Source: a virus. From it: a DNA stretch of 23,709 bases. Location: the IMG/VR virus record IMGVR_UViG_3300020478_000069, positions 1-23,709 of that record; one strand, 5' to 3'. Shown piece after piece: positions 34 to 20,325 of the stretch. Positions within the stretch are counted from its first letter, which is position 1, and every line of letters begins with the position of its first letter. The notes under the pieces are model-generated. The model had not been told where the DNA came from and did not search any database. It saw only the letters and a list, made by a program, of their open reading frames with translations. The translations under genes were made by a program, and so were the position numbers.

Positions 34-1611
34 CTAATCGTTGTGGAATGGGTGGTGCGCGGAAAACCTCACGCCATCCCCGTCCCTTGTTAAATGGTTT
101 GCGTTGCTAGTGTGGTCTTTAATTTTCTTAACGCCTCCGTCAATTATCGAGTCACCCTTATAGTAGGCGACCAGGCCAGTACTGCCGGGGTCGATGTCCT
201 TGTTGTAGTTGCCCGATATCTCCCCCGCAGTTCTTGCGGTGTTCCATAGTCGGATCTCACAAAGACGCCCGTCAAACTGATAGGTAGCGCTATCTGTCGA
301 TGTGTCAAAATTGCCGATAGTGAATTGCGCCGAATTGTCATTGACCGAGGACTGGACCGCGCCAAGACCACCGTGCTCGTAGCTAACATTTCCGCTGGCC
401 GTCGTTAGTAGAACGCCGTCCATATAAAAAGCGTGCTGTGCCTTAACGGTCGATTGCGACACGTCATACACCCAAGCGAAATGCGTCCAAACGCTTGACT
501 CCGGTCTTAGGGTGGTTGCTGAAGTGACGTTGTTTGTCACCGTGGAACTCCAGTACTGGTACTTGAAACTGTGATTACTTCCCGCAAACGTCCCGTCTGA
601 GGAGACACCAACACGCCAATAACGACCGTACGAGTACGTGTAATCACGAATCCCAAAAGCCATGTCCGAAGATGCAAACTTACAGAGAACCTGATTAAAG
701 TTGCTGTCCATTTGCCCGTTGCACCACCACAGTTCAATAGTGAAATCGCCACTCCCAAACTCGAAAGCAGAGTCATCGGCATGGCGCGCTGCATTGATAC
801 CGGGAACCCCTGTTCCGCTCGTAAAATTTGTTGACTCTGATACGAATAAAGAACGCTCTGCCGGAGGCTTTAGGCCCTTGTTTATCGTCGGGACATACCC
901 GGAATATTTCGGTTCTAAGTCGTTGTTGTGCCTTCCTGCATAGTCTTTGAAATCGGTAGTCAAGGGCCAATAACTTTGTAGCCCTTCCTCGCCGGGGTAA
1001 GGGTGTACAGTGGCAAGCTCCTTCATTCTGTCGGTACTGAGAACGCCCTTGTAGACCGCGACGTGTCTATACTCGGCATCGTGGGGGTAAGTATTGCTAC
1101 CGGAGTCATGCCCCCCGATACAGAAACCGTTTCCGGTATCAACCTTGATATTACCCGACCCCGCCGCACCTGTGGCTGTAGCGTTGCTTAGTAGTACACC
1201 ATCCACTACACATTTCAGCTCATCGGCGAGCGCCGTCTCCGAAAGGTCCCAGGAGATAGCGATATGATGCCACCCGCCCGGATTCCACTGCATCCCTGTA
1301 GTGCTATACCAGTATCCATGCGTCCCGAATGCATGACCGTCGCAATAAAAGTACGTGTAGATTCTCTGCTCCGTGCCGCTAGTGTACCAGTATATAGCGT
1401 ATCCAGACCCCTTGCTAATTTGCAGGGTCCAAGTATTTAGCGCAGTTGTTGGGTGTGGTTTGAAGTGATAGCTCCACGTCATCGCCGTCGTGCTAGCGTC
1501 GTTCAACCCGTTGCTGGTCGCGTGATCAACCCGCAAGTATTTGTGCTGACTCGTTGTCACGTAATCAGTTGAAATCGAACCGTCTGGCAATCCTGCGTGA
1601 AACATCGTCAT
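34..1611 (-). CDS. Double LamG-domain virion protein, probable receptor-binding tail protein
   Basis: The 525-residue protein is two concanavalin/LamG-like beta-sandwich domains in tandem, about residues 22-240 and 254-515. Domain 1 shows WHHIAISWD, VVDGVLLS and YRHVAVYKGVLS. Domain 2 shows FTIELWW, WTHFAWVYD, FYMDGVLLT, FDGRLCEIRLWNTARTAGEI and GLVAYYKGD. These are the usual LamG landmarks: a central W-x-H strand, an x-DG-x-L hairpin and a final E-x-R-x-W strand. Such domains bind glycans, and on a phage they would sit on the tail exterior. The start ATG (1611) is preceded by GGGAGG at seven-base spacing; a second in-frame ATG lies two codons on. It is the last complete gene of the late run, directly after a fibre-like gene, which fits an adsorption role. 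No glycosidase catalytic residues were recognised, so a lectin rather than an enzyme is inferred. Confidence 0.8.
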   Translation of the reverse strand: MTMFHAGLPDGSISTDYVTTSQHKYLRVDHATSNGLNDASTTAMTWSYHFKPHPTTALNTWTLQISKGSGYAIYWYTSGTEQRIYTYFYCDGHAFGTHGYWYSTTGMQWNPGGWHHIAISWDLSETALADELKCVVDGVLLSNATATGAAGSGNIKVDTGNGFCIGGHDSGSNTYPHDAEYRHVAVYKGVLSTDRMKELATVHPYPGEEGLQSYWPLTTDFKDYAGRHNNDLEPKYSGYVPTINKGLKPPAERSLFVSESTNFTSGTGVPGINAARHADDSAFEFGSGDFTIELWWCNGQMDSNFNQVLCKFASSDMAFGIRDYTYSYGRYWRVGVSSDGTFAGSNHSFKYQYWSSTVTNNVTSATTLRPESSVWTHFAWVYDVSQSTVKAQHAFYMDGVLLTTASGNVSYEHGGLGAVQSSVNDNSAQFTIGNFDTSTDSATYQFDGRLCEIRLWNTARTAGEISGNYNKDIDPGSTGLVAYYKGDSIIDGGVKKIKDHTSNANHLTRDGDGVRFSAHHPFHND

Positions 1612-2744: not shown

Positions 2745-3389
2745 CTATTTCTGTAATCTCTGGGACTGTGTTATTTGGTTTTCGGCGGTCTGCTTTACAT
2801 TGCTAAGATTCGCTTTTTTCTCTTCCTGTGCGGCCATAAATACCTTCTGCCTTTCCCGCATGGCCTCGGGACTCATCACCGAATCCGCTGGCATATCGAA
2901 CAGGATCGAAAGCTGTACTATCTTGTTAAATGGGAGTCGGCCCTCTGTCTTGGGTAGCTCTTCTATGAATCGTTCCTGTATCCGCATATAGATCTCAGGG
3001 GATGTATCTCTCAGCGCCTCCGCTTCCTCTTTAGTAAGCCTTCCACGGTTCATGGAGTCAAGGACGCTCATCGGGTTCCAGGCTGCCCCCGCATACCTCG
3101 CGAACTTCGCGATAGCATGGTCTGACGGTATGTACTCATCGTATTCTGAACCCAGGTAGCCCATAGGTGGGCCTTTTGGCAGTTTCTTGTGAATCAACAT
3201 AAGTCGGTTGAAGTGCTCCTCTGCGACGGCATTCCCGATATTATGATCCAGCGTGCGAAGGTTTCGCGTAGCATCGGAAAGCCGATCCATTGTGCCCTGC
3301 GGGTCTGCCATTGACGCATCAAGCTCGGCCGCACGCCTAAAGTAGGCTTTTTGTAACTTGGTTAGTTTGCGGTGTGGCCTATTCTTCAT
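2745..3389 (-). CDS. Ejection-protein C-terminal domain as a separate gene
   Basis: The 214-residue helical protein is read from ATG 3389, which has AAAGGAA six bases upstream. An in-frame ATG 60 bases earlier would add a hydrophobic MFFLLWITCLLV leader that lies inside the preceding gene and lacks that support. Residues 90-185 (KFARYAGAAWNPMSVLDSM, GRLTKEEAEALRDTSPEIY, IVQLSILFDMPADSVMSPE) resemble, from memory, the C-terminal end of long internal virion proteins in other phages, where they are fused to the large chain. Here the gene overlaps the end of the 976-residue ejection gene by 11 bases in another frame, which suggests the two act as one split protein. The C-terminus is Gln/Lys-rich and probably disordered. 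An independent minor virion protein is the alternative. Confidence 0.65.
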   Translation of the reverse strand: MKNRPHRKLTKLQKAYFRRAAELDASMADPQGTMDRLSDATRNLRTLDHNIGNAVAEEHFNRLMLIHKKLPKGPPMGYLGSEYDEYIPSDHAIAKFARYAGAAWNPMSVLDSMNRGRLTKEEAEALRDTSPEIYMRIQERFIEELPKTEGRLPFNKIVQLSILFDMPADSVMSPEAMRERQKVFMAAQEEKKANLSNVKQTAENQITQSQRLQK

Positions 3390-6309
3390 ACTTGGTTCCT
3401 TTAAAATCAACGTCACCAAAAGACATGTTATCCAGAGTAGAAAGAACACCTACGGCCGCATATGGCTGGGCCTTCTTCGTAAGGCCAAGGAACCCCTGGA
3501 CACCGCTGGCCAGCCTAGACTGGGTTTTACCGTAGGCCGTTGTAACAGACTTACCAAGCCCGCCACCCGTAACCGCATCGTATCCCCTTCTAATCAGGCC
3601 AGCACCAAAGCGGCCAGCGATTGCCCGGCGGAAGCTGCCGCCGCCTGCCATCTTCATCCCAGCATAGTATCCGCCGGTAGTCATCCCCCTTGCTAATGCA
3701 TCCTCAATCAGGCCCTTGCGGCCTTTCTTTCCTGGTCCGGCGGTTGTTGTGCCAAACAGGTAATCCGCTTCCTTGGCGAGCCTTGTGGCCTCGGCCGCCG
3801 TAACTTGTTCTTTAAGGGCGTCACGGAGCCTTATCGCCTCGTCCAGTTTAGCCCTGTCAACAACGGCCGCATCAAGCTCGGCCTCGGCGGTTTTGAGCTT
3901 TGCCTCTGCCTCTTCTACAATTTCTTTTCCGAGCGCGGGCTGGTCTTTTAGTCTTTGACGCGCTAGGTCCAGTTCCCTCTGGGCCATCCTCGCAAACTCT
4001 AGTTTCTCTGGCGGTACCTCACTCGCATGGCGAACACCCCGGACTAGCTCATCCATTTTTTCATTGACGCCCATTTTCTCAGCCTCTGATAGCGCTCCCT
4101 GGGCGGCCCTTACTTCTTCATTCTCGGCTACTTCATCGTTTATTGACTTACGCCTGGCCCTAACGGCTGGCTTTTGCAGAACCCCCTTTGCCTGAAGGAG
4201 TTTAGTTCCAGCCTTTGCGCCCTTGTACCATAGTAAGGGTTCTATAATTGCTCCGAGGGTTGGCGAGATCGCCCCGGCTGCTTCGCCTAAGCCCGGCATA
4301 GTGCCAGTCATATCCCCGGCCGCCTCTACCGCACCAAGCAATTCCACACCGGAAAGGCTGTCGGCCATTTCTACACCGGATCTCTGCGCCCTCAAATAGT
4401 CCCCCGGACTGAATTGGGCTCCCATGATATCATCAATGTCCTCCGGCAGCTTGCTTTTTGCAAGAATGCCACGTTCTGCCAGTAGCGGCTTAAGTCGTCG
4501 AACCTCTGCTATCTGTGCGCGTAACGCATCCATCATATGATCGGCACGCCTGATTAGTTCTTCATATACCTCCGGCTGCTCTTTGGCTAGCTTCAAGATC
4601 TGCGCCTCTGTAAACTTGGGAGGGGAAGGCTTCAGCTTCTCCCATATTTTCCCCTTATCTCTTTTTCGCTTATAAAGGCGGCCCATTTCTAGGTGGTGAA
4701 TAAAGGTGTTTCGGAACGTGTTCCATGCGCTATTAAGATCTGTCGTTGTTCTTTGAAGGCCCTGCGTCATGTTGTCCCATAGCTTTACCCCTGTCGTCCC
4801 TACATTAACGGGAAGGTTTTGCTGGATCTTAAACCCCTCGCTCTTCCACTTTGTTCCATTCTGAAACAACGCAAAGAGGTTGGCGTTAAAGTTGCTTGGC
4901 TTGTAAAGAAGTCCTTCAAGCTCCTTGTTGAAGGTTGCCACCTGGCTGGTAAACTTGTCTTCAGCGGCCCTCTGCTCCCTTGCCGCATCCTTAGCCTTTC
5001 GCTTCGCCTCCTTTAATTGCTTTTTTCGCTGGCGAACTATCGACGCATTTACTGCCTTACTGAATCGCGTCTCTGCTTTCTGCTCTGCTCGCTGCGCCTT
5101 TTTGACCGCCTCGTCTGCTTTTAGTAGGGCGGCCTCTTTTGCACGAACTTCTTTTCCGCGCTTCTCTAGTATGTCGGCCTGCTTTCCTAGCGTAACCTGG
5201 ACTTCCTTTTCCGCGCCCAAAACCTCTTTGTTCTTGTCGGCTACAATCTTCTCGTAATTTCGCTCGGCCGCCTTTACTTCGCGCTCTGCTCTCCGAAGAT
5301 CTGCCTTCCTGGCTCGGGATTCAGTCTTTGCGACTTCCTTCCCCATCCACGCATCAGACTCTGCCCGGATCACAGCATCCATCTCATCGGCGGCCCTCAC
5401 GGCCCGGCTCTCTCGCCAATTCTTAAATGCCTTGTGCCCGTCGCCAAGCATTGATAGACCGCCACCAAACGCGGCCCCCCACTTAGCGCCAGACCATGCG
5501 CCCGCCTTCATCTCTGACCAAAGGGCCTCCGATGTCATCGGGTCGCCGGATAGACTGAGGGTTGACATTCCCTGGCCAGCACCGTAGGCTGCTGCTTCGA
5601 TGGTGCTCTGGACTGTCCACGGAATTGCCCTGCCAGCAACCGCCCGAAGTCCGGTAGAAGCACCAGCACCGCGAAGTGTTCCGCCTGCGATAAATTCCCC
5701 TACAGGGACAACTGCCCGGCCTGCGCCCATCGAGCCACGGAAAGCTAATCCCGCCGGGGTTGCGCCTGCGATCTTTGCCGCCATACCTGTCTTGGCTGCG
5801 GCTGCGCCGCCCTTGGCAAACATCGATGTTCCGCCCGTTGCGATGGCGGTTCCCACAAAGCCACCGATCTCTCCGACAGTGGCCGCGTATGGATTCCATC
5901 GCTTTCGCTCACGAAGACCTTCTTCGTCAACACCCATCGCTTCCAGAACCACGTCTGAAAGCCCGAAGGTGACACCTCGGCCAGCCCCTTCGAGTAAGGC
6001 TCTTCCGGTAGACCAGAACCCATCACCATACTCTGCCTCTAATCCAGATTGCTCCTCCCTGTGACGAATATGCGCTAGCGATTCGGGGGCCATCCCGATC
6101 TGGCGGCCAAAGGCTGCGCCAGCATCGGCCGCGTCGATTGTCCTTGTCTTGCCCCGGTCATCGACAACAAGCATTGGATCACCGCGCTCTCCCTGCCATA
6201 GACCCGACTGAATCGCATCCTTTAACTGGGACTGAGGAAACCATTTCCTTTCACCAGTTTGCTGGTTTATTAGGGTGTTCCCTGTTATTGCCTCATGAAA
6301 ACGTGACAT
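3379..6309 (-). CDS. Large internal virion (DNA ejection) protein
   Basis: The 976-residue protein has a short N-terminal domain (residues 1-100). It is followed by RALLEGAGRGVTFGLSDVV and a long Gly/Ala-rich amphipathic helical region with hydrophobic stretches (141-290). A highly charged coiled coil spans about 305-465, and a second Ala/Glu/Lys-rich coiled coil runs from roughly 700 to 860. A Gly-rich hydrophobic tail ends near QGFLGLTKKAQPYAAVGVLS. This architecture is typical of proteins packed in the capsid and ejected to help DNA cross the cell envelope. No lysozyme or transglycosylase motif (such as a clear E-S/T slt pattern) was found. It follows the 814-residue ejection gene by eight bases and overlaps a gene that looks like its missing C-terminus. 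No classic gene name can be assigned with confidence. Confidence 0.7.
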   Translation of the reverse strand: MSRFHEAITGNTLINQQTGERKWFPQSQLKDAIQSGLWQGERGDPMLVVDDRGKTRTIDAADAGAAFGRQIGMAPESLAHIRHREEQSGLEAEYGDGFWSTGRALLEGAGRGVTFGLSDVVLEAMGVDEEGLRERKRWNPYAATVGEIGGFVGTAIATGGTSMFAKGGAAAAKTGMAAKIAGATPAGLAFRGSMGAGRAVVPVGEFIAGGTLRGAGASTGLRAVAGRAIPWTVQSTIEAAAYGAGQGMSTLSLSGDPMTSEALWSEMKAGAWSGAKWGAAFGGGLSMLGDGHKAFKNWRESRAVRAADEMDAVIRAESDAWMGKEVAKTESRARKADLRRAEREVKAAERNYEKIVADKNKEVLGAEKEVQVTLGKQADILEKRGKEVRAKEAALLKADEAVKKAQRAEQKAETRFSKAVNASIVRQRKKQLKEAKRKAKDAAREQRAAEDKFTSQVATFNKELEGLLYKPSNFNANLFALFQNGTKWKSEGFKIQQNLPVNVGTTGVKLWDNMTQGLQRTTTDLNSAWNTFRNTFIHHLEMGRLYKRKRDKGKIWEKLKPSPPKFTEAQILKLAKEQPEVYEELIRRADHMMDALRAQIAEVRRLKPLLAERGILAKSKLPEDIDDIMGAQFSPGDYLRAQRSGVEMADSLSGVELLGAVEAAGDMTGTMPGLGEAAGAISPTLGAIIEPLLWYKGAKAGTKLLQAKGVLQKPAVRARRKSINDEVAENEEVRAAQGALSEAEKMGVNEKMDELVRGVRHASEVPPEKLEFARMAQRELDLARQRLKDQPALGKEIVEEAEAKLKTAEAELDAAVVDRAKLDEAIRLRDALKEQVTAAEATRLAKEADYLFGTTTAGPGKKGRKGLIEDALARGMTTGGYYAGMKMAGGGSFRRAIAGRFGAGLIRRGYDAVTGGGLGKSVTTAYGKTQSRLASGVQGFLGLTKKAQPYAAVGVLSTLDNMSFGDVDFKGTKYEE
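3396..3402 (-). promoter_or_regulatory. Ribosome binding site inside the 976-residue ejection gene
   Basis: AAAGGAA lies six bases before ATG 3389 and within the last codons of the upstream ejection gene. It supports separate initiation of the 214-residue protein rather than a sequencing frameshift in one long gene. Confidence 0.65.
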
Positions 6310-6317
6310 AGAAACCC

Positions 6318-8762
6318 CTATATTGCCCGCCCTCGCATACGCATCCGCCGGGCTGCTCTCTTCTGCGTTTCGCGTGTTCTTCTGTATATCTTACTCCAGT
6401 TCTTCTGGCCGGAAATAAATGCCTTCTCCACCTCCTGCCTCTGTTTCTTGTTCATCCATTCAGGCGCGTAGCCCTCTGGCCAGGTGCTATGTCCCTCATG
6501 CTCTGCCCATGGCTTTTTGAATGAATCCCTGTACCCCTGCGCCACACCTGCCAAGCGTGCCCGTTTCTTGTAGAGTGCAACAGTCTTCCCCATTTTCATC
6601 TGCCACGCCTTGCGCTTTGTCATGTCGGTGCCCGGCGCTCTCTCCCCTTTTCCCTTTAAGCCTGTCGGCATCTTCCCTCTTGGGGGCTGCCATGCAGGCT
6701 GTTGTACCCGCTCATCGATGGCTTCGATTAATTGATTCACTCCGTCGAAGGTGGTTTCTCGGTCCATTCCCTCCGTTTGCGTGCCCGCGAGAACTGATTT
6801 CTCCGTTCCCTTAAGGAGTTTGTTTATAGCCACCTCGGCCTCGCCCGGATCACCGCTCTCGATTGCTTTTAACACACCGGCGTAAGGGCCAACCTGTTTC
6901 GATGATACCCGGTTGATTGTGGGGTTATAAAACTCCTCCATGTTATCAAACCAATGCTCGTCAATATCGATCATTCCGGCACGGATCTGGTTTCGGTGCT
7001 CTCGGTAGACCCCCTCTTTGTAGCTTCTGAGCGCCTTCAGCGGGCTACCCTTAAGAAACTCGTACCACTTGTTTGGTCCGGTTATGATGCCATCGGCCCA
7101 CCGCAAAAATTCCTTGTCGGTCGTTTGCGCGCCCGAAAGCGAGTGCATTTGCCTTACTGCGAGGTTCAGGTGTTTCTGGACCAATGCGCGCTCATCTGCG
7201 CTCTGCCACCACTTTGGATTAACACGGGTTTTTTCCCTTATCGCTCTTTCAAAATCCGCCAGCGATTGGAGTACGGCCGTTCGTGCAAGAACATTTTGGT
7301 GTGTCTCCCTCTGGAGTGTCTTGTCATGGGCAGGGTTAACCCGGCCGATGGTTACCGCCTTCGGTCTACCCCATACAGGCTTACCGTCCTTACCCACTAC
7401 GGGCTTACCATCCGGGCCTATCACCTGATGCCGGTATTTGGGTCCCGAAAACAACTCAGTTTGCGGGCCTCTGGTAACCTTAAACCCGGACTGGACCGCC
7501 TCCTCGACTGACTGCCGTCTGGCTGCCTTTGCTGCTTTCTCCGTTGCGTCTTTCCGAAACTCTAGCTCCGCCCTCCATTTGGCTTCTGCGCTCTCTTGTG
7601 CAAGACGGCTCGTTTTTGCGTTGTACCAGGCTACACCCTCACGCTGCTCTTGGCCTTTAATCTTGAGAAGGGCCGCATCGCGTTTTTCTCTGGCCTGAAT
7701 TGCTAACAAATCAAACCCTGCTGCCTTCGCTTTATCGCCATACTTTGACTTTATGGCGTCGATCTTATTGCCTACAACTGTCCAATAGCGGGCGTGCGCC
7801 ATATCCATGGCCTTGCCCTTGTCCCTCTCAATTTGAAGGGAGTCCTGATAAATACCTACCTGCTGACCAGCCGCCCACTTCTTCTTGGCAAGGTTCGCCT
7901 GCTGTACTCGGATGTCCCGGTCGATCATCTTCTGGATTAGGGCTACACCTTGGTTTTGCTCACCCCGGCGTTGAACCAACCCACCCAGGGCGGCCATGAG
8001 AACCATCCCTATCTTTCCGCCGACATCGCTTTTTCCGAAGTAATCAGTATCGATTTTTGTGTTGTTAATATCGTCCAGCATGGCCTGGCGCTTTGCCATA
8101 CCTTCTCGGGCCATCTTATCGGCCGCCTCATCAACTTGCGCCCGCTCTTTCAGGTAGGCCGCATCCCGCTTAGCTGCCTCCTGCTTCACCGCAAGGCGTT
8201 CTCTTGCTTCTGATACGTGAAACCCCTTTTGGGTCCTTGCTATGTCGGCCCTCTGTTGGGCCGCAATGTCTGCCGATTCCTTCTCGGCCCTGTACCGCCC
8301 TTTGTATTTCCTGCTCGGCGTGTAATCCTTATCGGTTATTGAAGGAATGCCCGGCTCCTCTTCGGCTGGCGCGGGCTGGGCTGGTGCTCCGGGTTGTTGT
8401 ATGCCGAAACCGCCAGCTTGGCCAAAGCCGACCGTTGGATCCTGCAAGCCTGTATCACCGAGTGAAAGCTCCGGACGCTGGCCGCCCATCTGTCCCGGTG
8501 TGCCCTGGAACCCTGGCCTTTCAGGAGATGCCCCGCTGGCAATAAGTTCCGCCACCGCAGCCTCATATTCGCGGCTACCTAAAACTGGGTTCGGGTTCAT
8601 GCTGCGGCGGGCGACTTCCGCGTCACTCCCCTGGCCACCCAAAGCATCTAGTTCCTCTAGTGCTTCCTGTGATCGCACCTCCTCCTGGCGATCTCTTTCT
8701 CTGATCTCCGCTAGGTATTCTTCCATCCCTGGGGTGGTGGGTAGTTCATCTTCAAATGCCAT
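6318..8762 (-). CDS. Internal virion (ejection) protein with basic C-terminus
   Basis: The 814-residue protein starts acidic, then has a Gly/Pro/Gln-rich linker (about 80-140) and a charged helical stretch (155-235). A short hydrophobic segment, KIGMVLMAALGGLV (about 250-263), is followed by IQKMIDRDIRVQQANLAKKK, a combination I associate with phage internal virion proteins. A Gly-Pro-Asp-Gly-Lys repeat pair (GPDGKPVVGKDGKPVWG) lies mid-chain. The last 60 residues are strongly basic and end in RAARRMRMRGRAI, suited to contact with packaged DNA. ATG 8762 has AGGAG six bases upstream. The gene sits between two other ejection candidates, matching the usual three-gene ejection set of short-tailed phages. 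No enzymatic motif is visible; the function is inferred from architecture and context. Confidence 0.65.
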   Translation of the reverse strand: MAFEDELPTTPGMEEYLAEIRERDRQEEVRSQEALEELDALGGQGSDAEVARRSMNPNPVLGSREYEAAVAELIASGASPERPGFQGTPGQMGGQRPELSLGDTGLQDPTVGFGQAGGFGIQQPGAPAQPAPAEEEPGIPSITDKDYTPSRKYKGRYRAEKESADIAAQQRADIARTQKGFHVSEARERLAVKQEAAKRDAAYLKERAQVDEAADKMAREGMAKRQAMLDDINNTKIDTDYFGKSDVGGKIGMVLMAALGGLVQRRGEQNQGVALIQKMIDRDIRVQQANLAKKKWAAGQQVGIYQDSLQIERDKGKAMDMAHARYWTVVGNKIDAIKSKYGDKAKAAGFDLLAIQAREKRDAALLKIKGQEQREGVAWYNAKTSRLAQESAEAKWRAELEFRKDATEKAAKAARRQSVEEAVQSGFKVTRGPQTELFSGPKYRHQVIGPDGKPVVGKDGKPVWGRPKAVTIGRVNPAHDKTLQRETHQNVLARTAVLQSLADFERAIREKTRVNPKWWQSADERALVQKHLNLAVRQMHSLSGAQTTDKEFLRWADGIITGPNKWYEFLKGSPLKALRSYKEGVYREHRNQIRAGMIDIDEHWFDNMEEFYNPTINRVSSKQVGPYAGVLKAIESGDPGEAEVAINKLLKGTEKSVLAGTQTEGMDRETTFDGVNQLIEAIDERVQQPAWQPPRGKMPTGLKGKGERAPGTDMTKRKAWQMKMGKTVALYKKRARLAGVAQGYRDSFKKPWAEHEGHSTWPEGYAPEWMNKKQRQEVEKAFISGQKNWSKIYRRTRETQKRAARRMRMRGRAI

Positions 8763-9474: not shown

Positions 9475-12400
9475 TTATACACTCCTTGAATCTGCGGCCT
9501 TAAACGTGCCGCGCTTGGTTCCGACTTCCAACATTAATTCTGTAACCTCATAGCCTTCACCGAGGTAACCCCCCACTCTGGCATGATCTTCAAAGTAAAA
9601 CTTAACACTCTGGCATTTCTGCTTTGGTAGATGCGCCCGAAATTGGTAGGTCTGCGTTTCCATCTCCGTGGTGGTTGTTCCGCTACCGAACGGAGTGCCA
9701 TCACCAAGTTCGTCCGGCTGCGGATCCCCGAATACAGTGGGGGCAGTAGGCTCGAAAACCAGCCGTCTCTTTAAGGGCTCATAGTCGTAAGAAACATCCA
9801 GAGCAAGCCGATGGTTAGACTTGAATTCACCCAAGACCATCGCCCTTCGTACCCGCTGAAAGCCCTGCAATGTGTTTAGGGATACCCAGGAGGTTTCAAG
9901 CTTCAACTGTACCCGCGCACCCGCATCACTAAAGTCGGTGGTAGATTCTTTATAGACTTCCCCGCCTACACGACCGTAGCATAGGAGATCGTTCCAGTAC
10001 GTTGCTGATGTGCCCTGGTGGTTGGTGAAGGTTGACCACTGCTTGAAGTGGTAATCATACAAAAGCGCCCGGTTATCCGATGACAAAAACACCACCTGGT
10101 TCCGGTCTGGCGCTACGGCCGCCCTGGTTACTGTTGCATCGTTGTATGCCTCAACCTCTGCGCCGATATACCCAACCTGATACTGCTTCGTGAGAATATA
10201 AATTCCCTTGTTGGATTGAAACATCATTCCAAGCGGCATCGAAACAATGCTTTTCTGACTCCTACAACCAACGTCATTAGAGATAAGTTGCACCGCGCCA
10301 AACTGGCCAAAGCCTAAATTATTTGGTCCGTCGCCTGGAATGGCATAGATTGCCCGCTCCTTAAAAACAATAAGGTTATTGTTCATAGTGCGAAGGCCAG
10401 TGATCGCGCCGCCGTCCTCGGGTATTGTTAACCTTAGACCATCGTGAAAATCCACAGCCCTACCTGCGAAGTGCTGCTTTGAATACTGTATTTGCGAAGT
10501 ATCCTCAAACCCCGCCAGCCAGATCCGGTCTTTCCCTTCCGCGATGATAGATGCAGCCGGGGGCGGGATATTGTCTAGCTCGCCAGAATTGAGGTAATCG
10601 ACCTCTTTCCCAATGATCACGGAGTCGGCAAGCGAATCAACGAAGGTCACTTCATTGTCAATCGTGGAACCAGAAAGTGTAATATTCGGGATAAAACAAT
10701 TATCACCCGTAGTAGTCGCCGGGTCATCCCCGGACACCTTGTAAAACGGACTGTTCGCGCCCGGTGTGTGTTCCGTTCGATAAACCTCAAAATAAGTATT
10801 CGTCTTGTTCGTGTGCTCGATTGTCTGAATCGTTAGAGTTGCCTCTTGATTCGCCCCGGTGGTGTTGGTCTTGATTGATGCGGCGGTTGTTGAGCGCTCC
10901 TTTTCACCGTTTGCGTTTGTCCAGCACAGATACACTTTGTAAAAATAGGTTTTGTTGCTGCCGCCATACTCCAAGGCCCCGCCAGATCCGCCAACAACTA
11001 CGGAGAAGTCCTCCGGATAGTTATGAAGACCCGCCTCCACAACCTGCTTTCCGTCATACTGCCAAACCTGCCCGCCATTGAAGTAAGCCGTTCTCCCAAC
11101 CTGGACCATTTCATGCGCCTGGGGAGACTGATGTTTCATGCGAAACCTCTTGAGCCCCGGCGCTTCATAGATTGCCACTAACGTACTCGTGGCAGTTCCT
11201 GCTAGATCCGCATCCGTCGTATCGATGCGCTTCCGGTACCCACCCACCCACTGATGGACACCGCCACCCAGATCCTGCACACCTGGAAGGTGCTTCTCTG
11301 TCACCAGGCCACGCGCCATTCCGGGCTCCATCTTAGCGATAAGCGTCCCGTCATCCATATATGTGTAATATGTTGTCTGGAGCGTTGAGGCATGTACTAA
11401 ATTAACATGCACGTCATTCGCATCTGACCATGCTTTCGATGCCAGACCAGCGTGAATCTTAAAAGGGACACCCGTCAACACGGTCCCCAGGTTTGTAAAT
11501 ACCGCCATCCGTACAAAGTGATTGTAATCATCTGATACGTTTGTTTCGTAAAATACATGTAGGGGATAGTCTTCGGCAAGTTGCTCCGTTTCCGCTGCCG
11601 TAAACAGGGTAGTTGGAAAGTCGGCCGTAACACCATCGACAAACGCCTTCTCTATTGGAGATAGGCTGGTATTATTCGTTAGGGTCATGTTATTGCCAGA
11701 GCTGTCCGTGAAGTCCCCGTTTAAGCGCCAGTACCCCTTTAGGTTTGTCTGCGTTGTTGTTATTTCCTTGTAAGCGTTGTCTAAGATTTCGGCGGCTGTT
11801 CGCTCGACATCCCACACCCTTACTTCGGATATCTGTCCGTCAAAGTAATTAGTGTGTGTTCCATTCTCGCTTCCGATGCGAAAGTCGGCCGCTGATGCCT
11901 CGGATGTTGTTGTTGCTAGACCTGTAATTAGCGAACCCAACGCAGCACCGTCTTTGTAAAACTGAACATCCCCGGCTGACTTGTCGTGGACAACCGCCAG
12001 GTGATACCACGTCCCAACAACTGCCGTGAAGCTAGTGGAGGCCGTCACGTAATTACCGGCCGAGTCGCGGCAACCAAACTGTAGTGTATCCGGGGATCCG
12101 TCTACATAGCGAAAATAATACCCTTTGGTCCCTGTCCCGTTTTCATCCCTTGCGACAAATGTCATTTTGTTGCCGCTGGTTGGAAGGGATTTAAATTTTA
12201 CCCAGCATTCAATGGTTATGTCATCATAGATCGCCAACGCATCGGTGGTCGTGCCTGTTGTTATTGACGCATACCGGCCATCACTCGCCAGGAGATCAAG
12301 AACACGCACAAACGGCCGTTCAAATGGGTCGCGCTTGAATGCACACGCAATGTTTACAACATCCGGGGCCGTGGCAACGGGATCTAGCACCTCAAGAAAG

Positions 12401-13302
12401 AGCGTCTGAAGGGTCGCCCCTTCGATAATCATCGACTTAACCCCCTCACTGTCGTTGTGCCACACCATAACAACATTCCCGGTATTGGGCTCCGCCGTAA
12501 CTGTCAACGCATTGGCCGGGTCTTCCACAAAATCCTGGTCACTGACCGACACACCTGCTGATGTGTAGCGCCCGATCTTTAGCTGTAGGCTTCCGTGGGT
12601 TGTGCGGTAGGCAACATACACAGAATCCCCGCTCGCACATACGTCGTAAAAGTAGGGGGTCATATCCAGATCTGAAACTATAGTTGTCTGGGTGAAACCG
12701 TCCCTTATTACCTTCTCGACATTTGCCGGAGAAATAATCGTCCTTACAATCAGGCCGTCACGGATACCATAGACATGAATAAACGACCCGGCCGCTATTA
12801 CCCTCGGGCGACCCATGCTTGCATGGAAGACCCCATCAAAATAGACTGTGCCTGTATCCTCGTTGAGGATTGCGATGTTTATCGCGGAATTGTTCTGTTC
12901 CCATGCGTAAACCGTCACCCCGTCAACTGTGGCGCAATCTGCGAGCCCCTGCTTTTCGTCGGTTTCCGCAACCGTCTCCGTGTCAATAACCACCGATTTA
13001 AACCGGCCGCGATCTACCCACTTCTCTTCGGCAGGGGCGTAACTCATCAACCGCTCGTCATCTACGAGTAAGAGTTCATTGTCAACTGTATGAAGCGCAC
13101 GGGCGGAAGTCGGGGCTGATGTGGAGGCCATAATGTCATTAGACATCTTGGTGTACCCGTTTCTCTTTACAATAGAACCGCCCTTCGTAAACACCCCGTT
13201 CTCCAGGTTGGCGAGTTTCGTCGGTGGCAGTGCCTTGGGGTCTGTTTTAGTATCCAGCCCCTGGCCTATCGGTAACGAAATATTTTGCCACTTCATTGCC
13301 AT
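9475..13302 (-). CDS. Tail hub/nozzle-type protein with inserted LamG lectin domain
   Basis: The 1275-residue protein begins LPIGQGLDTKTDPKALPP and LANLENGVFTKGGSIVKRNG, an N-terminus I associate with podovirus tail hub or stabilisation proteins. Repeating beta-strand units follow (IYAIPGDGPNNLGFGQFGAV, VVFLSSDNRALLYDYHFKQW), as in beta-propeller nozzles. Residues about 340-550 form a separate LamG/concanavalin-like domain: ITIECWVKF, TWYHLAVVHD, FYKDGAALGSL, FDGQISEVRVWDVERTAAEI and LKGYWRLNGD. The flanks (DVVNIACAFKRDPF before, YPLHVFYETNVSDDYNHFVR after) read as one interrupted hub strand pair. The C-terminal part is beta-rich with no fibre repeat. It lies between a fibre gene and the ejection genes. 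It should form the distal tail and, through LamG, add glycan binding. The start has only a weak ribosome site, three bases after the previous stop. Confidence 0.7.
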   Translation of the reverse strand: MAMKWQNISLPIGQGLDTKTDPKALPPTKLANLENGVFTKGGSIVKRNGYTKMSNDIMASTSAPTSARALHTVDNELLLVDDERLMSYAPAEEKWVDRGRFKSVVIDTETVAETDEKQGLADCATVDGVTVYAWEQNNSAINIAILNEDTGTVYFDGVFHASMGRPRVIAAGSFIHVYGIRDGLIVRTIISPANVEKVIRDGFTQTTIVSDLDMTPYFYDVCASGDSVYVAYRTTHGSLQLKIGRYTSAGVSVSDQDFVEDPANALTVTAEPNTGNVVMVWHNDSEGVKSMIIEGATLQTLFLEVLDPVATAPDVVNIACAFKRDPFERPFVRVLDLLASDGRYASITTGTTTDALAIYDDITIECWVKFKSLPTSGNKMTFVARDENGTGTKGYYFRYVDGSPDTLQFGCRDSAGNYVTASTSFTAVVGTWYHLAVVHDKSAGDVQFYKDGAALGSLITGLATTTSEASAADFRIGSENGTHTNYFDGQISEVRVWDVERTAAEILDNAYKEITTTQTNLKGYWRLNGDFTDSSGNNMTLTNNTSLSPIEKAFVDGVTADFPTTLFTAAETEQLAEDYPLHVFYETNVSDDYNHFVRMAVFTNLGTVLTGVPFKIHAGLASKAWSDANDVHVNLVHASTLQTTYYTYMDDGTLIAKMEPGMARGLVTEKHLPGVQDLGGGVHQWVGGYRKRIDTTDADLAGTATSTLVAIYEAPGLKRFRMKHQSPQAHEMVQVGRTAYFNGGQVWQYDGKQVVEAGLHNYPEDFSVVVGGSGGALEYGGSNKTYFYKVYLCWTNANGEKERSTTAASIKTNTTGANQEATLTIQTIEHTNKTNTYFEVYRTEHTPGANSPFYKVSGDDPATTTGDNCFIPNITLSGSTIDNEVTFVDSLADSVIIGKEVDYLNSGELDNIPPPAASIIAEGKDRIWLAGFEDTSQIQYSKQHFAGRAVDFHDGLRLTIPEDGGAITGLRTMNNNLIVFKERAIYAIPGDGPNNLGFGQFGAVQLISNDVGCRSQKSIVSMPLGMMFQSNKGIYILTKQYQVGYIGAEVEAYNDATVTRAAVAPDRNQVVFLSSDNRALLYDYHFKQWSTFTNHQGTSATYWNDLLCYGRVGGEVYKESTTDFSDAGARVQLKLETSWVSLNTLQGFQRVRRAMVLGEFKSNHRLALDVSYDYEPLKRRLVFEPTAPTVFGDPQPDELGDGTPFGSGTTTTEMETQTYQFRAHLPKQKCQSVKFYFEDHARVGGYLGEGYEVTELMLEVGTKRGTFKAADSRSV
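9482..9487 (-). promoter_or_regulatory. Ribosome binding site that fixes the start of the small ejection gene
   Basis: AAGGAG on the minus strand, eight bases before ATG 9473. A candidate GTG start at 9480-9482 would overlap this site, so the ATG is preferred. Confidence 0.7.
11653..12285 (-). other. LamG/concanavalin-like domain inside the tail hub gene
   Basis: This segment encodes residues about 340-550 of the hub protein. It contains the LamG landmarks in order: ITIECWVKF, WYHLAVVHD, FYKDGAALG, FRIGSEN, FDGQISEVRVWDVERTAAEI and GYWRLNGDFTDSSGN. The FDGQISEVRVWDVERTAAEI segment closely matches FDGRLCEIRLWNTARTAGEI in the terminal double-LamG protein, so the two are probably related by duplication or shared import. 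The boundaries are estimates. Confidence 0.75.
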
Positions 13303-14572: not shown

Positions 14573-14902
14573 CTAAAAAACCCATAGGCTTACTGTGTAT
14601 GTGGCGGTCGTTGATCCTGTAGTCAACATAAGCCACAGCTCCTGATCCTCTTTTTTGTTATCGACCTGCTGATCGGAGAAGACCCCCGCCGTTGCATTTC
14701 GACGAACGACAACCCACCCGCGCAACTTCCTACCTAAACCATGACGGATCCTTGCTGTCGTGCCTTCCTTGACACTTATATCCTCCAAGAGCCTGCCCTG
14801 AAGGATAGGAACATCAACCATCTCATTAAAGCGGTCTACAACAGGTTCAACGGCCTGGGTTAGATCCGCTTTTTGTGACCATATTTTCGCTACTTTCTTC
14901 AT
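14573..14902 (-). CDS. Small beta-rich tail protein, 'HGLGRKxRGW' type
   Basis: The 109-residue protein has a helical N-terminus (QAVEPVVDRFNEMVDVP) followed by a beta domain with TTARIRHGLGRKLRGWVVVR and a final TYTVSLWVF. The pairing of 'HGLGR-x-x-RGW-x-VV' with a terminal 'LW-x-F' is, from memory, frequent in short phage proteins encoded near tail fibres; I know no established function. ATG 14902 forms an ATGA overlap with the adaptor stop. A GTG 21 bases upstream could add seven residues but lies inside the GGAGG-bearing segment. Probable role: fibre or tail-tip accessory. Confidence 0.65.
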   Translation of the reverse strand: MKKVAKIWSQKADLTQAVEPVVDRFNEMVDVPILQGRLLEDISVKEGTTARIRHGLGRKLRGWVVVRRNATAGVFSDQQVDNKKEDQELWLMLTTGSTTATYTVSLWVF

Positions 14903-15573
14903 AATGTGTCCGCACGCCTCCACCAGTCACCCGGCCTCGAACCCGCGCCCCGAACATCAACAACCCGGCGCGGAGTTGACCATGCTCTGTTTTGAACCAT
15001 CTCCTCAATGCGGGCACGAATACGCTCCAGATCGCGCTCGATGGCGGCTGTAGATGACTCTTCCTTCTGGAGCATCTTTTTCGCCGCGTCCACAACGATA
15101 AATTCCTCCCACCCTGACACTCCGTCAACCGTATCCGAGTCACTAGACAGGTTAGAAGGGGCCGGGATGTAGATATGCCGGTAGGTCCCACCCGAAGGGG
15201 CCGGAAGGAGCGATATGTTTGATCCCTGTGGGGAATACACCGTGGCATCACCCGATGAGTTCTCGAAACTATGCCGCTCCATGATCATGTACTCAGTTAG
15301 CGGAAGATAGTCCGACCCTGATAGCCGGTCTACCCGTATTGTTCCGTAGTAATCGGCCGGAAGCGCGTAGGTTTCAGATCCGCTACCCGTAATCGTCTGT
15401 GTAGTCGGGGTGAAATAGATCAGCCCTGACTGAACCAGGAGATCATAAAGCTCTGCATAGGATGCCGAGATGTACCCGTTCAATTCGCTATCAGTAACGA
15501 ATGATGAGTTCACCATATCGCTGCGTTCTCGTGCCTTAGTTCTGAGCTGTGCAAGCGTAAAAGTCCGGGCCAT
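14899..15573 (-). CDS. Head-tail adaptor (connector) protein
   Basis: The 224-residue protein starts MARTFTLAQLRTKARERSDM followed by FVTDSELNGYISASYAELYD, the helical N-terminus typical of podovirus-type adaptors that ring the underside of the portal. A beta-rich middle holds TYALPADYYGTIRVDRL and YRHIYIPAPSNLS. It ends in long charged helices (FIVVDAAKKMLQKEESS, LERIRARIEEMVQNRAW) and an Arg-rich tail. Length and order (after capsid, before fibre and hub) fit this role. AGGAG lies six to seven bases upstream of ATG 15573. The adaptor would seal the filled head and provide the platform for the tail hub. Confidence 0.8.
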   Translation of the reverse strand: MARTFTLAQLRTKARERSDMVNSSFVTDSELNGYISASYAELYDLLVQSGLIYFTPTTQTITGSGSETYALPADYYGTIRVDRLSGSDYLPLTEYMIMERHSFENSSGDATVYSPQGSNISLLPAPSGGTYRHIYIPAPSNLSSDSDTVDGVSGWEEFIVVDAAKKMLQKEESSTAAIERDLERIRARIEEMVQNRAWSTPRRVVDVRGAGSRPGDWWRRADTL

Positions 15574-16193: not shown

Positions 16194-17432
16194 TTAGATG
16201 GCGAAAACGCCGTTCCACCCTGGAGCAATGCACGCCAAGTTAGCCCAGTAACGAGCGCGAACTTCAATGCCGTCTGCTGCAGACTGACGAAGAGCGCTGT
16301 TACCGTCAAGGGTATCAATGTGTGGGAATGCATCCAAGTGATGAAGTTGCCATGTATTCATCTGTAAGACATATCCACGATTGGAAGGGCAGTCCGGGTC
16401 TGGGTGTACCATTACGGGACCAGCTGAGGTGTGAATCTGAACTCCACCAAAACCAACATCTGCTTTTCCGCCTGCACCTTGATACTCAACCTTGGTTCCA
16501 AGACCTTTGATTAAGTTGTTAAAGTTGCCATGAGAAATGAAGCATTTGTCTGGTCGTCCACCGGAGCGAACGATGCTTTCGGAAAGCGTTAAGATATTCT
16601 CTTCGATGCTGTTCCCGGTTGCGTCAAGGCGATGTCCAGCCAAGCGAGTTGGGTGGGCGGTTCGGTCAACACCGAAAAACAAGGTAGCCGAAGGCGTAGT
16701 CAGTGGAAGCCATCCAGCAAGACCCATCATCTTAGTAACACCGAGAGATGCGGCTGCGGTCTGATCACCAGAGGTGAAGATGTAGTCACCAGCATCAATG
16801 CCAGTACCACCAGCAGAACAAGCCGTGTGAACGGTTAAGGTTCCTGCAGCTTCATCCACTGCGGTTACTCGAAGTTCTGCCTGTCCAGACCTCGGAGTCG
16901 TACCATCGATAGCATCAGCAAATACGATGTATTGGCCAACGCTGAAGTTGCGGCTGTCGTCTGCGTCGGTGAGGGTGATGGTCGTTCCGGTTCCAGGGTC
17001 ACTTGCCGTAATACCGAGAGCACCATAACCACTGCGATACAATGCGTGTGCCGCTGAGTTACCGAGTTGTGCAAGCATCATATCGATTTCAGTCTTGCGA
17101 GCATTTACAAATGCGCCGCGATTAGATCTCGATGCTCGAAGAGTAATCGCTTCAACCAAGATTACAGCGTAATCCGACGCTTGGGTAATGTTCCATTTAA
17201 CCGAAGAGCTATTACGCGCATTGGCTTGAGCGGTTGCGAAGGTAGCAGAACGACCTGCTGGGTTGCCGTAGTAAACGGGCACTACAAGATTGTCACCTTC
17301 AAAGTCGTCAACTTTCTTGACCATACTCATGAAGGGGTGAGCCTTTGCGGCTACGTTTTCAGGGACGCCTGCGGGATATAATTCCTTGAGCATCGCATCG
17401 AATTCAGTTTGTCCTAATGCATTCTGTGCCAT
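16194..17432 (-). CDS. Major capsid protein (HK97-like fold, inferred)
   Basis: The 412-residue protein lies directly downstream of the scaffold gene, the canonical place for the capsid subunit. The N-terminal arm (FDAMLKELYPAGVPENVAAK) and the E-loop-like segment (LVVPVYYGNPAGRSATFATA) are followed by an alpha spine with AFVNARKTEIDMMLAQLG. Residues about 150-225 (VGQYIVFAD, AELRVTAVDEAAGTLTV, GIDAGDYIFTSGD) look like a small inserted beta domain. Conserved-looking P-domain strands follow (KCFISHGNFNNLIKGLG). The C-terminus, VRARYWANLACIAPGWNGVF, is typical of this capsid group. AAGGAG lies nine bases before ATG 17432. It forms the icosahedral shell. Codon choice appears more biased than in neighbouring genes, as expected for the most abundant virion protein. 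Confidence 0.85.
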   Translation of the reverse strand: MAQNALGQTEFDAMLKELYPAGVPENVAAKAHPFMSMVKKVDDFEGDNLVVPVYYGNPAGRSATFATAQANARNSSSVKWNITQASDYAVILVEAITLRASRSNRGAFVNARKTEIDMMLAQLGNSAAHALYRSGYGALGITASDPGTGTTITLTDADDSRNFSVGQYIVFADAIDGTTPRSGQAELRVTAVDEAAGTLTVHTACSAGGTGIDAGDYIFTSGDQTAAASLGVTKMMGLAGWLPLTTPSATLFFGVDRTAHPTRLAGHRLDATGNSIEENILTLSESIVRSGGRPDKCFISHGNFNNLIKGLGTKVEYQGAGGKADVGFGGVQIHTSAGPVMVHPDPDCPSNRGYVLQMNTWQLHHLDAFPHIDTLDGNSALRQSAADGIEVRARYWANLACIAPGWNGVFAI

Positions 17433-18459: not shown

Positions 18460-20325
18460 TTATCCTGGGATTCCTGATGGCTTCAAAAGTTGTGTCTGTG
18501 GTGACAATGCCGCCGCCGGGGGGCCTCCTGGGGCGGGGCCTCCGGTCATCGGGGGAGATGCCGGCGGTTGCATCATCATCTGGGCTTGCATCATCTCTTG
18601 CTGCGCCAATTGGGCGATCATCTTCAGCTCATAGTCGGCTGATTCGATCCATCGGCGCATATCTTCGAGAATGTCTTCGGGGGCACCTTCCCGCCGGGCC
18701 TTTAGGTAAGCGAGTTGCACCCGCTTTATTCCCATCGTTAGGTCCTGGTAGGGCTCCGGGGGGTGGTACTTTCCATCTAGTAAGTCCTCAATCGTCGCTT
18801 CGATGTCTTCGATGGCTGCGTTGACAATATCGGCCGTTCTTTCAAGATCTGGGTGGTTCAGTAAACGCCGCGCTTCATCGGTGTCGATGATTCCCGCCTG
18901 GGACCACTCCACAACCTGCTGAGAACGACCCGCCGGGGTTCTGCTTAGAATGCTGGCGGGCTCTAAGCGAATCTTGTAGGTTCCATCGTGGATCTTCGCT
19001 TCTTTGAAACAAATCTTCTCTACCAGTTTTTTCGCGTGAAATACGCTTTTACATTCTCCGCCGTCTTCATGGACGGCCCTGGCGATATCGATATAGCGCT
19101 CGGCTGCTAACGGCGCAATGCGCTCAAACTCTTGCGCGTTGTAGGCGAACCTTTGCGCATTTATGTCGTTATATTCCCGCAACGCCACCGCGCTCTCTAG
19201 CCCGGCTGGTTTTCTTGATGTTGCCGCAAGTTGTGAGATTCCAGCGATCTCGAAGCCTCGTCTCCAAAGGCTTTCTTTGTAGTTGTAGATCTCCGGAGAA
19301 ACCGCCTGAGCTGTATGGAATACAGGTGGCTTTCCTCGATAAGGGATGATCGCGCCGATCTCGTTATTGATCTGCATCTTGAGGTTTTTCGATGCGATAT
19401 CTACAAAAACCCTCGGAACAGCGATTAAATCCTGGGCTTTTTGGATAAAATGATTGAGTTGATTGATCCTAAGCTGAATTCCGGTAAGTTGCTCGGCCAG
19501 CCCTTGGCCGTAAAACCCGCATACCGGTTCACTCCATCGGTAGAATATGAACGGGAAGTAGTCATTCGTCCATTCCTCCGATACGAGGGTAGCCCCATCG
19601 ATGCAAATGACCCGCTTACCGTCTTTTTCGTCTGGCCCACTCGGTAGGTGGTAGCTCTCAACACAAACAGCCGTGTTCGGGTCAATACTTCGATAGGCAC
19701 CACTACTCCTCGCGCTCTCACGGGTAGACTCTTCAATCTCCTTCGTGAAGTCTGGGAACTCGGCCTTAAGGACTTCCTTGTCAATAAACTTGACCTGATG
19801 AAGCTGGCGCGGCTCACTAGAGCGACACTCCATCTCATCCACTTTGATCTCATCAATCAGGACACGCTCACACCGAACATCACCGTTATGTTCGTAGATC
19901 TTCAGGGCTCCGGTGCCAAAAATAACGGCATCCCGAAAAGCGCGGGTCGCTTCGCGGTGAAAGTTCGTTTCGTCAAACTTCCCCTCTACCCATTTCTCTA
20001 ATAGTCGTGCGCGGCGCTGGACGGAAAACTCGGCCCCATCAGTCTGGAACGTTACACGGGCCCGGTTTCCAGCAATGATACTGGTTGCGGTATCGACCAC
20101 GGACTGGATTAAATTCTCTGTAACCCGGCCTAAACTTTTACGCGAATAATCGCGCTGGGTTAACGTCCAATCCAGGCCCAAAAGATCGACGTTGGAATAA
20201 AGTCGGGCATTCCGTATGTTCATCTCGTGGATATACTTTTGCATTTCCTCAAGAGATTCCACATGGGCAATTACCGCCTCATGCATTGTTTCTTCGGGCT
20301 CTTCCCACCAGAAATTATCGGTCAT
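18460..20325 (-). CDS. Portal protein
   Basis: The 621-residue protein follows the terminase block and precedes the scaffold. Portal-like features include an N-terminal helical region, LIQSVVDTATSIIAGNRARV (about 72-91), the wing strand-helix AFRDAVIFGTGALKIYEHNG (129-148), and the stem/crown helices near LRINQLNHFIQKAQDLIAVP. AYNAQEFERIAPLAAERYID lies in the late helical region. The last 45 residues are rich in Met, Gln, Pro and Gly, probably a disordered barrel-top tail. It forms the dodecameric ring at the unique vertex through which terminase pumps DNA. The start forms an ATGA overlap with the preceding gene, with AGGAGG about ten bases upstream. Its length is within the usual range for podovirus portals. 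Confidence 0.85.
   Translation of the reverse strand: MTDNFWWEEPEETMHEAVIAHVESLEEMQKYIHEMNIRNARLYSNVDLLGLDWTLTQRDYSRKSLGRVTENLIQSVVDTATSIIAGNRARVTFQTDGAEFSVQRRARLLEKWVEGKFDETNFHREATRAFRDAVIFGTGALKIYEHNGDVRCERVLIDEIKVDEMECRSSEPRQLHQVKFIDKEVLKAEFPDFTKEIEESTRESARSSGAYRSIDPNTAVCVESYHLPSGPDEKDGKRVICIDGATLVSEEWTNDYFPFIFYRWSEPVCGFYGQGLAEQLTGIQLRINQLNHFIQKAQDLIAVPRVFVDIASKNLKMQINNEIGAIIPYRGKPPVFHTAQAVSPEIYNYKESLWRRGFEIAGISQLAATSRKPAGLESAVALREYNDINAQRFAYNAQEFERIAPLAAERYIDIARAVHEDGGECKSVFHAKKLVEKICFKEAKIHDGTYKIRLEPASILSRTPAGRSQQVVEWSQAGIIDTDEARRLLNHPDLERTADIVNAAIEDIEATIEDLLDGKYHPPEPYQDLTMGIKRVQLAYLKARREGAPEDILEDMRRWIESADYELKMIAQLAQQEMMQAQMMMQPPASPPMTGGPAPGGPPAAALSPQTQLLKPSGIPG

Follow-up and report, generated by a model that had tools for sequence, protein, structure and literature searches.

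A LamG domain gained within a predicted second propeller of the tail nozzle in one clade of podoviruses

Host range in short-tailed phages is usually ascribed to fibers and spikes. The window analyzed here, the whole 23,709-nucleotide stretch of virus record IMGVR_UViG_3300020478_000069, encodes a 1275-residue tail protein with a LamG domain in its interior. An earlier note on this DNA had read the protein as a tail hub or nozzle into which a lectin-type domain had been inserted, at a point where such hubs normally carry none. Here, we ask what this protein is, whether its LamG domain is an insertion or an integral part of the fold, and what such a domain may do in an injection channel.

Results

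The 1275-residue protein is a podoviral nozzle

The hub gene and the virion genes that bear on its identity are the following.

9475 to 13302, minus strand: nozzle/hub protein, 1275 amino acids (open reading frame; phrog_3287; compact-hub profile; model against solved nozzles)
14899 to 15573, minus strand: tail adaptor gene, upstream of the hub (Pfam SU10_adaptor, E = 4.1e-16)
16194 to 17432, minus strand: major capsid protein (Pfam SU10_MCP, E = 2.3e-7; phrog_14242)
18460 to 20325, minus strand: portal (Pfam P22_portal, E = 3.6e-8)

The 1275-residue protein is the nozzle of a podovirus of the SU10/P22/T7 type, an identification that rests on its predicted fold (next section), a PHROG match, a profile of compact hubs, and gene order. 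It matched phrog_3287 (virion structural protein; E = 1.6e-15). A profile built from seven compact, P22 gp10-like phage hubs (466 to 553 amino acids; five of the seven annotated "phage stabilization protein") matched residues 9 to 76 (E = 1e-8) and 913 to 1140 (E = 1.1e-29 in a one-sequence search). Because these matches are confined to the two ends, the approximately 840 residues between them have for the most part no counterpart in compact hubs. Residues 958 to 1125 also gave a local sequence match to the crAss001 muzzle, gp44 (E = 7e-7, single subject). The genes run in the order terminase, portal, a scaffold-like gene (by position), capsid, two small genes, and adaptor, followed by two genes, the hub, a 234-amino-acid gene, two large genes, and fiber-like genes. 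The hub therefore lies where a nozzle gene is expected, downstream of the adaptor and ahead of the ejection genes (assigned by position only) and fiber genes, and the SU10_adaptor match supports its identity. Together, the adaptor neighbor and the model's likeness to solved nozzles bear out the hub/nozzle assignment of the earlier note. The two large proteins in the ejection-protein position (3379 to 8762, minus strand; 814 and 976 amino acids) matched neither Pfam nor PHROG families at the thresholds applied.

Sequence searches reached few known phages. The whole protein found 11 phage records, 10 of them through LamG alone; the N-terminal 339 residues found nothing in phage records at E values up to 1, and the C-terminal 701 residues found 49 records at E values up to 1, many of them weak and often annotated "stabilization protein." Searching phages with the hubs of two relatives returned four Roseobacter phages (L033) and no match (L035), and a profile of the hub family found no solved nozzle among solved sequences (best E = 0.022). 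The C-terminal part additionally matched phrog_5107 ("amidase"; 1.5e-8) and phrog_511 ("internal virion protein"; 1.7e-8). We rejected an enzyme reading, since the compact hub P0003 matches both families too, and we take these names as those of hub relatives rather than as evidence of an enzyme.

The predicted nozzle propeller is interrupted by a second propeller

Residues 1 to 1150 were modeled with AlphaFold2 (56 sequences; pLDDT 81, pTM 0.75), as was the hub of L037, a natural LamG-less homologue that served for comparison without the insert (pLDDT 82.8, pTM 0.83). The predicted window model contains the platform and seven-bladed propeller of the podoviral nozzle fold, and its best matches among solved nozzles were the crAss001 muzzle gp44 (PDB 7qok, 7qol; Z = 28.6), Pa223 (28.3), and SU10 gp17 (PDB 7z4b, 7z47; 26.0), followed by GP4 (24.3), HRP29 (21.9), and cyanophage A4 (20.7). 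The T7 and P22 nozzles were absent among the best 50 structural matches listed for this model. The L037 model matched SU10 (Z = 20.6), T7 gp12 (19.3; the class that we take TTPB to denote), and P22 gp10 (17.1). With Foldseek, multipropeller proteins (LRP2 and DDB1 among them) came top for the window model; SU10 ranked 5th and crAss001 10th.

The structural matches of the window model fell into two sets: nozzles matched over the whole chain, and single propellers matched over residues ~105 to 726. The latter set comprised CylK (Z = 28.3) and YncE (Z = 23.9), among many other propeller proteins, as well as the seven-bladed Photorhabdus PLL/PHL lectins (Z = 23.5 to 25.4 over ~300 residues). The L037 model gave the same two sets, with the Photorhabdus lectins at Z scores of about 13 to 16.0. 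These two sets indicate that a second propeller interrupts the nozzle's own, which is formed by strands before residue 100 and after residue 732. The parts of the chain are as follows.

13003 to 13302, minus strand: N-terminal nozzle part, platform and first blade, residues 1 to 100 (compact hub profile; model)
11125 to 12990, minus strand: second propeller, which carries LamG, residues ~105 to 726 (structural matches; model strands)
9883 to 11109, minus strand: remainder of the nozzle's own propeller, residues ~732 to 1140 (compact hub profile; model)
10636 to 10953, minus strand: possible Ig-like module inside the nozzle propeller, residues ~784 to 889 (strand pattern; weak profile matches)

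As predicted, then, the insertion is nested, with a second propeller set into the nozzle chain and LamG set into the second propeller. From the strand list and the matched lectins, we read the second propeller as seven-bladed. Its predicted resemblance to the Photorhabdus lectins is one of fold only: identity to the window protein is 8 to 12%, CylK and YncE score as well, and the same propeller is seen in the LamG-less L037. The Ig-like module is a possible reading of our own from the modeled strands; matches of the family profile to phage capsid-type proteins in this region were weak (E = 0.02 to 0.05).

A LamG module occupies a hairpin turn of the second propeller

Pfam PF13385 (Laminin_G_3) matched hub residues 342 to 506 over profile positions 2 to 150 of 151 (E = 4.2e-25), and its score of 89.1 bits, against a family cut-off of 27.6, rules out a chance match. 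Among solved sequences, the insert matched only 4dqa (4.1e-6) and a SAP-like pentraxin (0.056). The insert and its surroundings are laid out as follows.

11785 to 12279, minus strand: Laminin_G_3 core match, residues 342 to 506 (Pfam PF13385)
11572 to 12330, minus strand: LamG insert, residues ~325 to 577, each edge within about ±10 residues (free-gap profile alignment; halves found by hmmsearch; flanking strands)
12337 to 12360, minus strand: strand before the insert, residues 315 to 322 (AlphaFold2 model)
11539 to 11562, minus strand: strand after the insert, residues 581 to 588 (AlphaFold2 model)

Edges were placed with a base profile of 63 complete LamG-less hubs (median length 1013; four hubs with larger inserts left out). 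When one gap was made free, the alignment broke at profile columns 313 to 325, with the left part ending at residues 312 to 324 and the right part starting at 569 to 581, giving an insert of ~256 amino acids. The edges in L025 and L031 agreed within ~10 residues; those in L001 were looser (left edge 280 to 339). Freeing the gap raised the score from 749 to 932, roughly what the waived gap cost would account for (188); the gain itself is thus no evidence of insertion. Without the free gap, hmmalign placed the insert at residues 272 to 507; we set this placement aside as wrong, given that propeller blades resemble one another, and the free-gap alignment and the AlphaFold2 model agree with each other instead. 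Pairwise alignments with LamG-less relatives were too noisy to define the edges. In L037, the corresponding profile columns fall at residues 324 to 338, and its model has an 8-residue loop there (328 to 335) between strands 320 to 327 and 336 to 345, although local detail is uncertain in the part of the loop with pLDDT under 50 (328 to 332). In the window model, the linkers at 326 to 356 and 528 to 577 likewise had pLDDT under 50. The LamG block between them (361 to 525), modeled as a domain within the whole chain whose fold lists are filled by propellers, consisted mostly of beta strands with pLDDT of 58 to 86, falling to ~50 at 461 to 490.

These results sharpen the earlier account. The far above-threshold Pfam match confirms the LamG domain, and family membership predicts a concanavalin-like fold for the segment, as had been supposed. 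The whole insert (~325 to 577; 11572 to 12330) is wider than the proposed interval (residues 340 to 550; 11653 to 12285). The flanks had been described as one interrupted propeller segment; the profile of the 63 LamG-less relatives found them both, one on either side of the insert. LamG thus does split a propeller segment, but one belonging to the second, inserted propeller rather than to the nozzle's own.

The LamG domain was gained in one clade

Relatives were gathered stepwise, by a portal-based search (L025, L021), an alignment-based search (L031, L033), and a genome scan (L035). The L001 and L002 records carry an identical 1289-amino-acid hub, 83% identical to that of the window by tblastn. 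With an alignment of seven hubs as the query, the best 80 of 172 relatives were taken; these 80 loci and the window were examined, yielding 78 hubs over 900 amino acids. The L002 hub, being identical to that of L001, was not counted separately; L072, L099, and L106 were dropped for hub frames under 900 amino acids, and L034 was dropped because it matched via LamG alone. Seven hubs cut by contig ends were kept among the 78 (L021, L054, L064, L083, L094, L108, and L110).

The LamG insert was present in 5 of the 78 hubs (the window, L001, L025, L031, and L021), a count drawn from the best 80 of 172 relatives and not a population frequency. The other 73 had no match to a LamG profile better than E = 0.19; because the five inserts themselves were the source of that profile, the carriers score by construction, and the test lies solely in the absence of a match among the 73. 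Pfam found PF13385 independently in L001, L025, L021, and L031, and did not find it in the hubs of L033 or L035. In a PF13385 search of 50 records, some of which may be fragments, five (those of L001, L002, L025, L031, and L021) had the domain in the hub; no hub in the remaining 45 matched. Outside the hub, by coordinates, LamG occurred in 4 of these 45 (the records of L063, L069, L084, and L107), and the L002 record has a 455-amino-acid open frame with LamG, also outside its hub. One LamG-less hub (L035:7998-11120) comes from a contig assigned to a Burkholderiales bin (MAG), which may be a host hint or a binning error.

In a 67-row tree computed without the insert-region columns, the five carriers formed one clade (SH-aLRT 100), requiring one change of state; the tree came from a quick search under a simple model, with the root placed at the midpoint. 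We conclude that one clade acquired LamG at a beta-hairpin turn of the second propeller. The module is present in 5 and absent in 73 homologous hubs at one site, and these 73 hubs rule out LamG as an integral part of the fold, so that the insertion proposed in the earlier note stands. Its premise that hubs normally lack a lectin at this point holds within the family; relative to compact hubs it needs rewording, since the point lies in the second propeller and compact hubs match only the two ends.

A proposed role at the cell-facing end of the nozzle

Solved nozzles carry extra domains at roughly the same place. According to the accessible parts of the respective reports, the SU10 nozzle has four such domains, placed between blades 2 and 3, with two of the four forming the tip and two pointing to the capsid until the tail rearranges (PMC9509320); in T7, the tip emerges from a blade 3 loop (PMC6702177); and the IG1, IG2, and crass-fold domains of crAss001 are likewise inserted, with cell contact proposed for the crass domain (PMC10172136). 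In the window protein and its family, the second propeller would be inserted after the first blade or blades of the nozzle propeller, approximately where T7, SU10, and crAss001 carry these domains, and by analogy with them the LamG domain may face the host. If the nozzle is hexameric, as other nozzles are, six LamG copies would sit on flexible linkers near its cell-facing end. Fibers would make first contact, LamG would then bind a surface glycan or other ligand at close range, and this grip would help to keep the nozzle fixed to the envelope during opening. Glycan binding by the domain is putative. The low-confidence linkers, together with the pLDDT of ~50 at 461 to 490, mean that the model does not fix the orientation of LamG. 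Overall, we consider it somewhat probable that this is a nozzle of the SU10/P22/T7 type in which one clade carries LamG in a second propeller and six tethered copies bind a surface ligand near the cell.

Alternative readings and constraint on the insert

Near the contig end, the window encodes a separate LamG protein.

34 to 1611, minus strand: 525-amino-acid protein with two LamG domains (PF13385 at two places)

By position, this protein is probably a fiber or spike. Its LamG domains are related to the hub insert (26% identity, E = 1.7e-12), but only distantly, so recent copying of the insert from this gene is unlikely. It could also be a binding partner, a point in favor of a second reading in which LamG never touches the host and is a structural or docking module that binds a virion protein, such as a fiber or a neighboring nozzle subunit. 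LamG folds can serve as protein-binding or structural modules. Across the five inserts, 39 of 277 alignment columns were invariant; by eye these look like the LamG core, and no conserved ligand motif was seen by eye in the five. The loop of the insert that we take to resemble the pentraxin calcium motif varied among them. A jelly-roll fiber dock belongs to the T7 nozzle, according to the accessible part of its description (PMC6702177). Against docking, the absence of LamG from 73 of the 78 family hubs examined means that it is not needed to build a nozzle, and the domain hangs on low-confidence linkers. We regard docking as possible but, on balance, unlikely. Also doubtful is a more elaborate scheme in which the distal nozzle is a two-lectin glycan reader, its PLL-lectin-like propeller, common to the family, binding one sugar and, in the one clade, LamG binding a second, with the resulting six-fold adhesin sensing the envelope and gating DNA release without fibers.

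Several loops of the hub family seem able to take up modules. By hmmalign, L085 (L085:6001-9816; 294 amino acids) and L105 (L105:2048-5242; 72 amino acids) carry inserts at profile column 545, L098 (L098:6001-10119; 58 and 217 amino acids) and L073 (L073:5998-9429; 88 amino acids) carry them at columns 414 to 439, and L060 (L060:2210-5536) has inserts of 60 and 34 amino acids at columns 337 to 338. Searched against Pfam, these other-loop inserts gave no credible match, those of L085 and L098 giving no match; by eye, the L085, L060, and L105 inserts resemble modules that are frequent among phage tail proteins. Unrelated inserts of 72 to 294 amino acids at other loops of these five hubs would fit neutral decoration, in which tolerant loops take up modules and LamG is kept without an important role. 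Set against this is the presence of the insert in all five clade members seen, with hub identity down to 47 to 49% (tblastn), and its low dN/dS. Between the window and L001, dN/dS was 0.080 for the insert, 0.136 for blades 101 to 324, and 0.054 for the core, values that are rough since synonymous sites are near saturation; the insert value (~0.08) suggests that the sequence is maintained. We consider neutral decoration improbable. Blades 101 to 324 (12331 to 13002, minus strand) were the fastest-changing hub part compared between the window and L001; because these blades, and not the insert, change fastest, the insert shows no sign of receptor-driven diversification.

An ancestral LamG lost in other lineages, rather than inserted, is very improbable. 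In its favor, the root is a midpoint placement from a quick search; against it, all five carriers group in a single clade with LamG-less lineages around it when the tree is drawn from its midpoint, and several losses would be needed unless the root lay on the carrier clade's own branch.

Discussion

We favor the reading in which a LamG domain that may face the host was added to the nozzle, and its parts have precedents. One is SU10 gp17, and the adaptor and capsid genes of the window also match SU10 families; as far as the available part of its description goes, SU10 inserts four Ig-like domains, whereas the window protein has a second propeller with LamG. The crAss001 muzzle gp44 shares nested insertion in a propeller (IG1 and IG2, with the crass fold inside IG2), but its inserts are Ig-like domains and the crass fold, and the accessible text mentions no lectin-type domain. 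T7 gp12 and P22 gp10 share the nozzle fold of L037; the former has a small beta-barrel tip, in the part of its description at hand, and the latter is compact (~471 residues in the solved chain). In siphophages, the tail hub protein Dit has acquired a carbohydrate-binding module by insertion in some members only (evolved Dit), according to the accessible part of that report (PMC8540738), although theirs is another hub in long-tailed phages and the inserted modules are CBMs, so that the comparison is one of analogy.

In searches of the open-access PubMed Central literature, no description of LamG or another lectin in a podoviral nozzle was found, and the accessible part of one report (PMC11054128) makes no mention of a lectin in a muzzle. 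Nozzle propellers with inserted Ig-like or novel domains (SU10, crAss001) and Dit hubs with CBMs were known already; LamG in a podoviral nozzle is new relative to this literature. These observations suggest that nozzle propellers, like the Dit hubs of siphophages, accept modules. Since LamG is present in the nozzle of one clade and missing from its relatives at the mapped turn, the family offers a natural with-and-without comparison of host-surface reading by an injection channel. If the proposed role is true, LamG helps the nozzle to grip the host surface.
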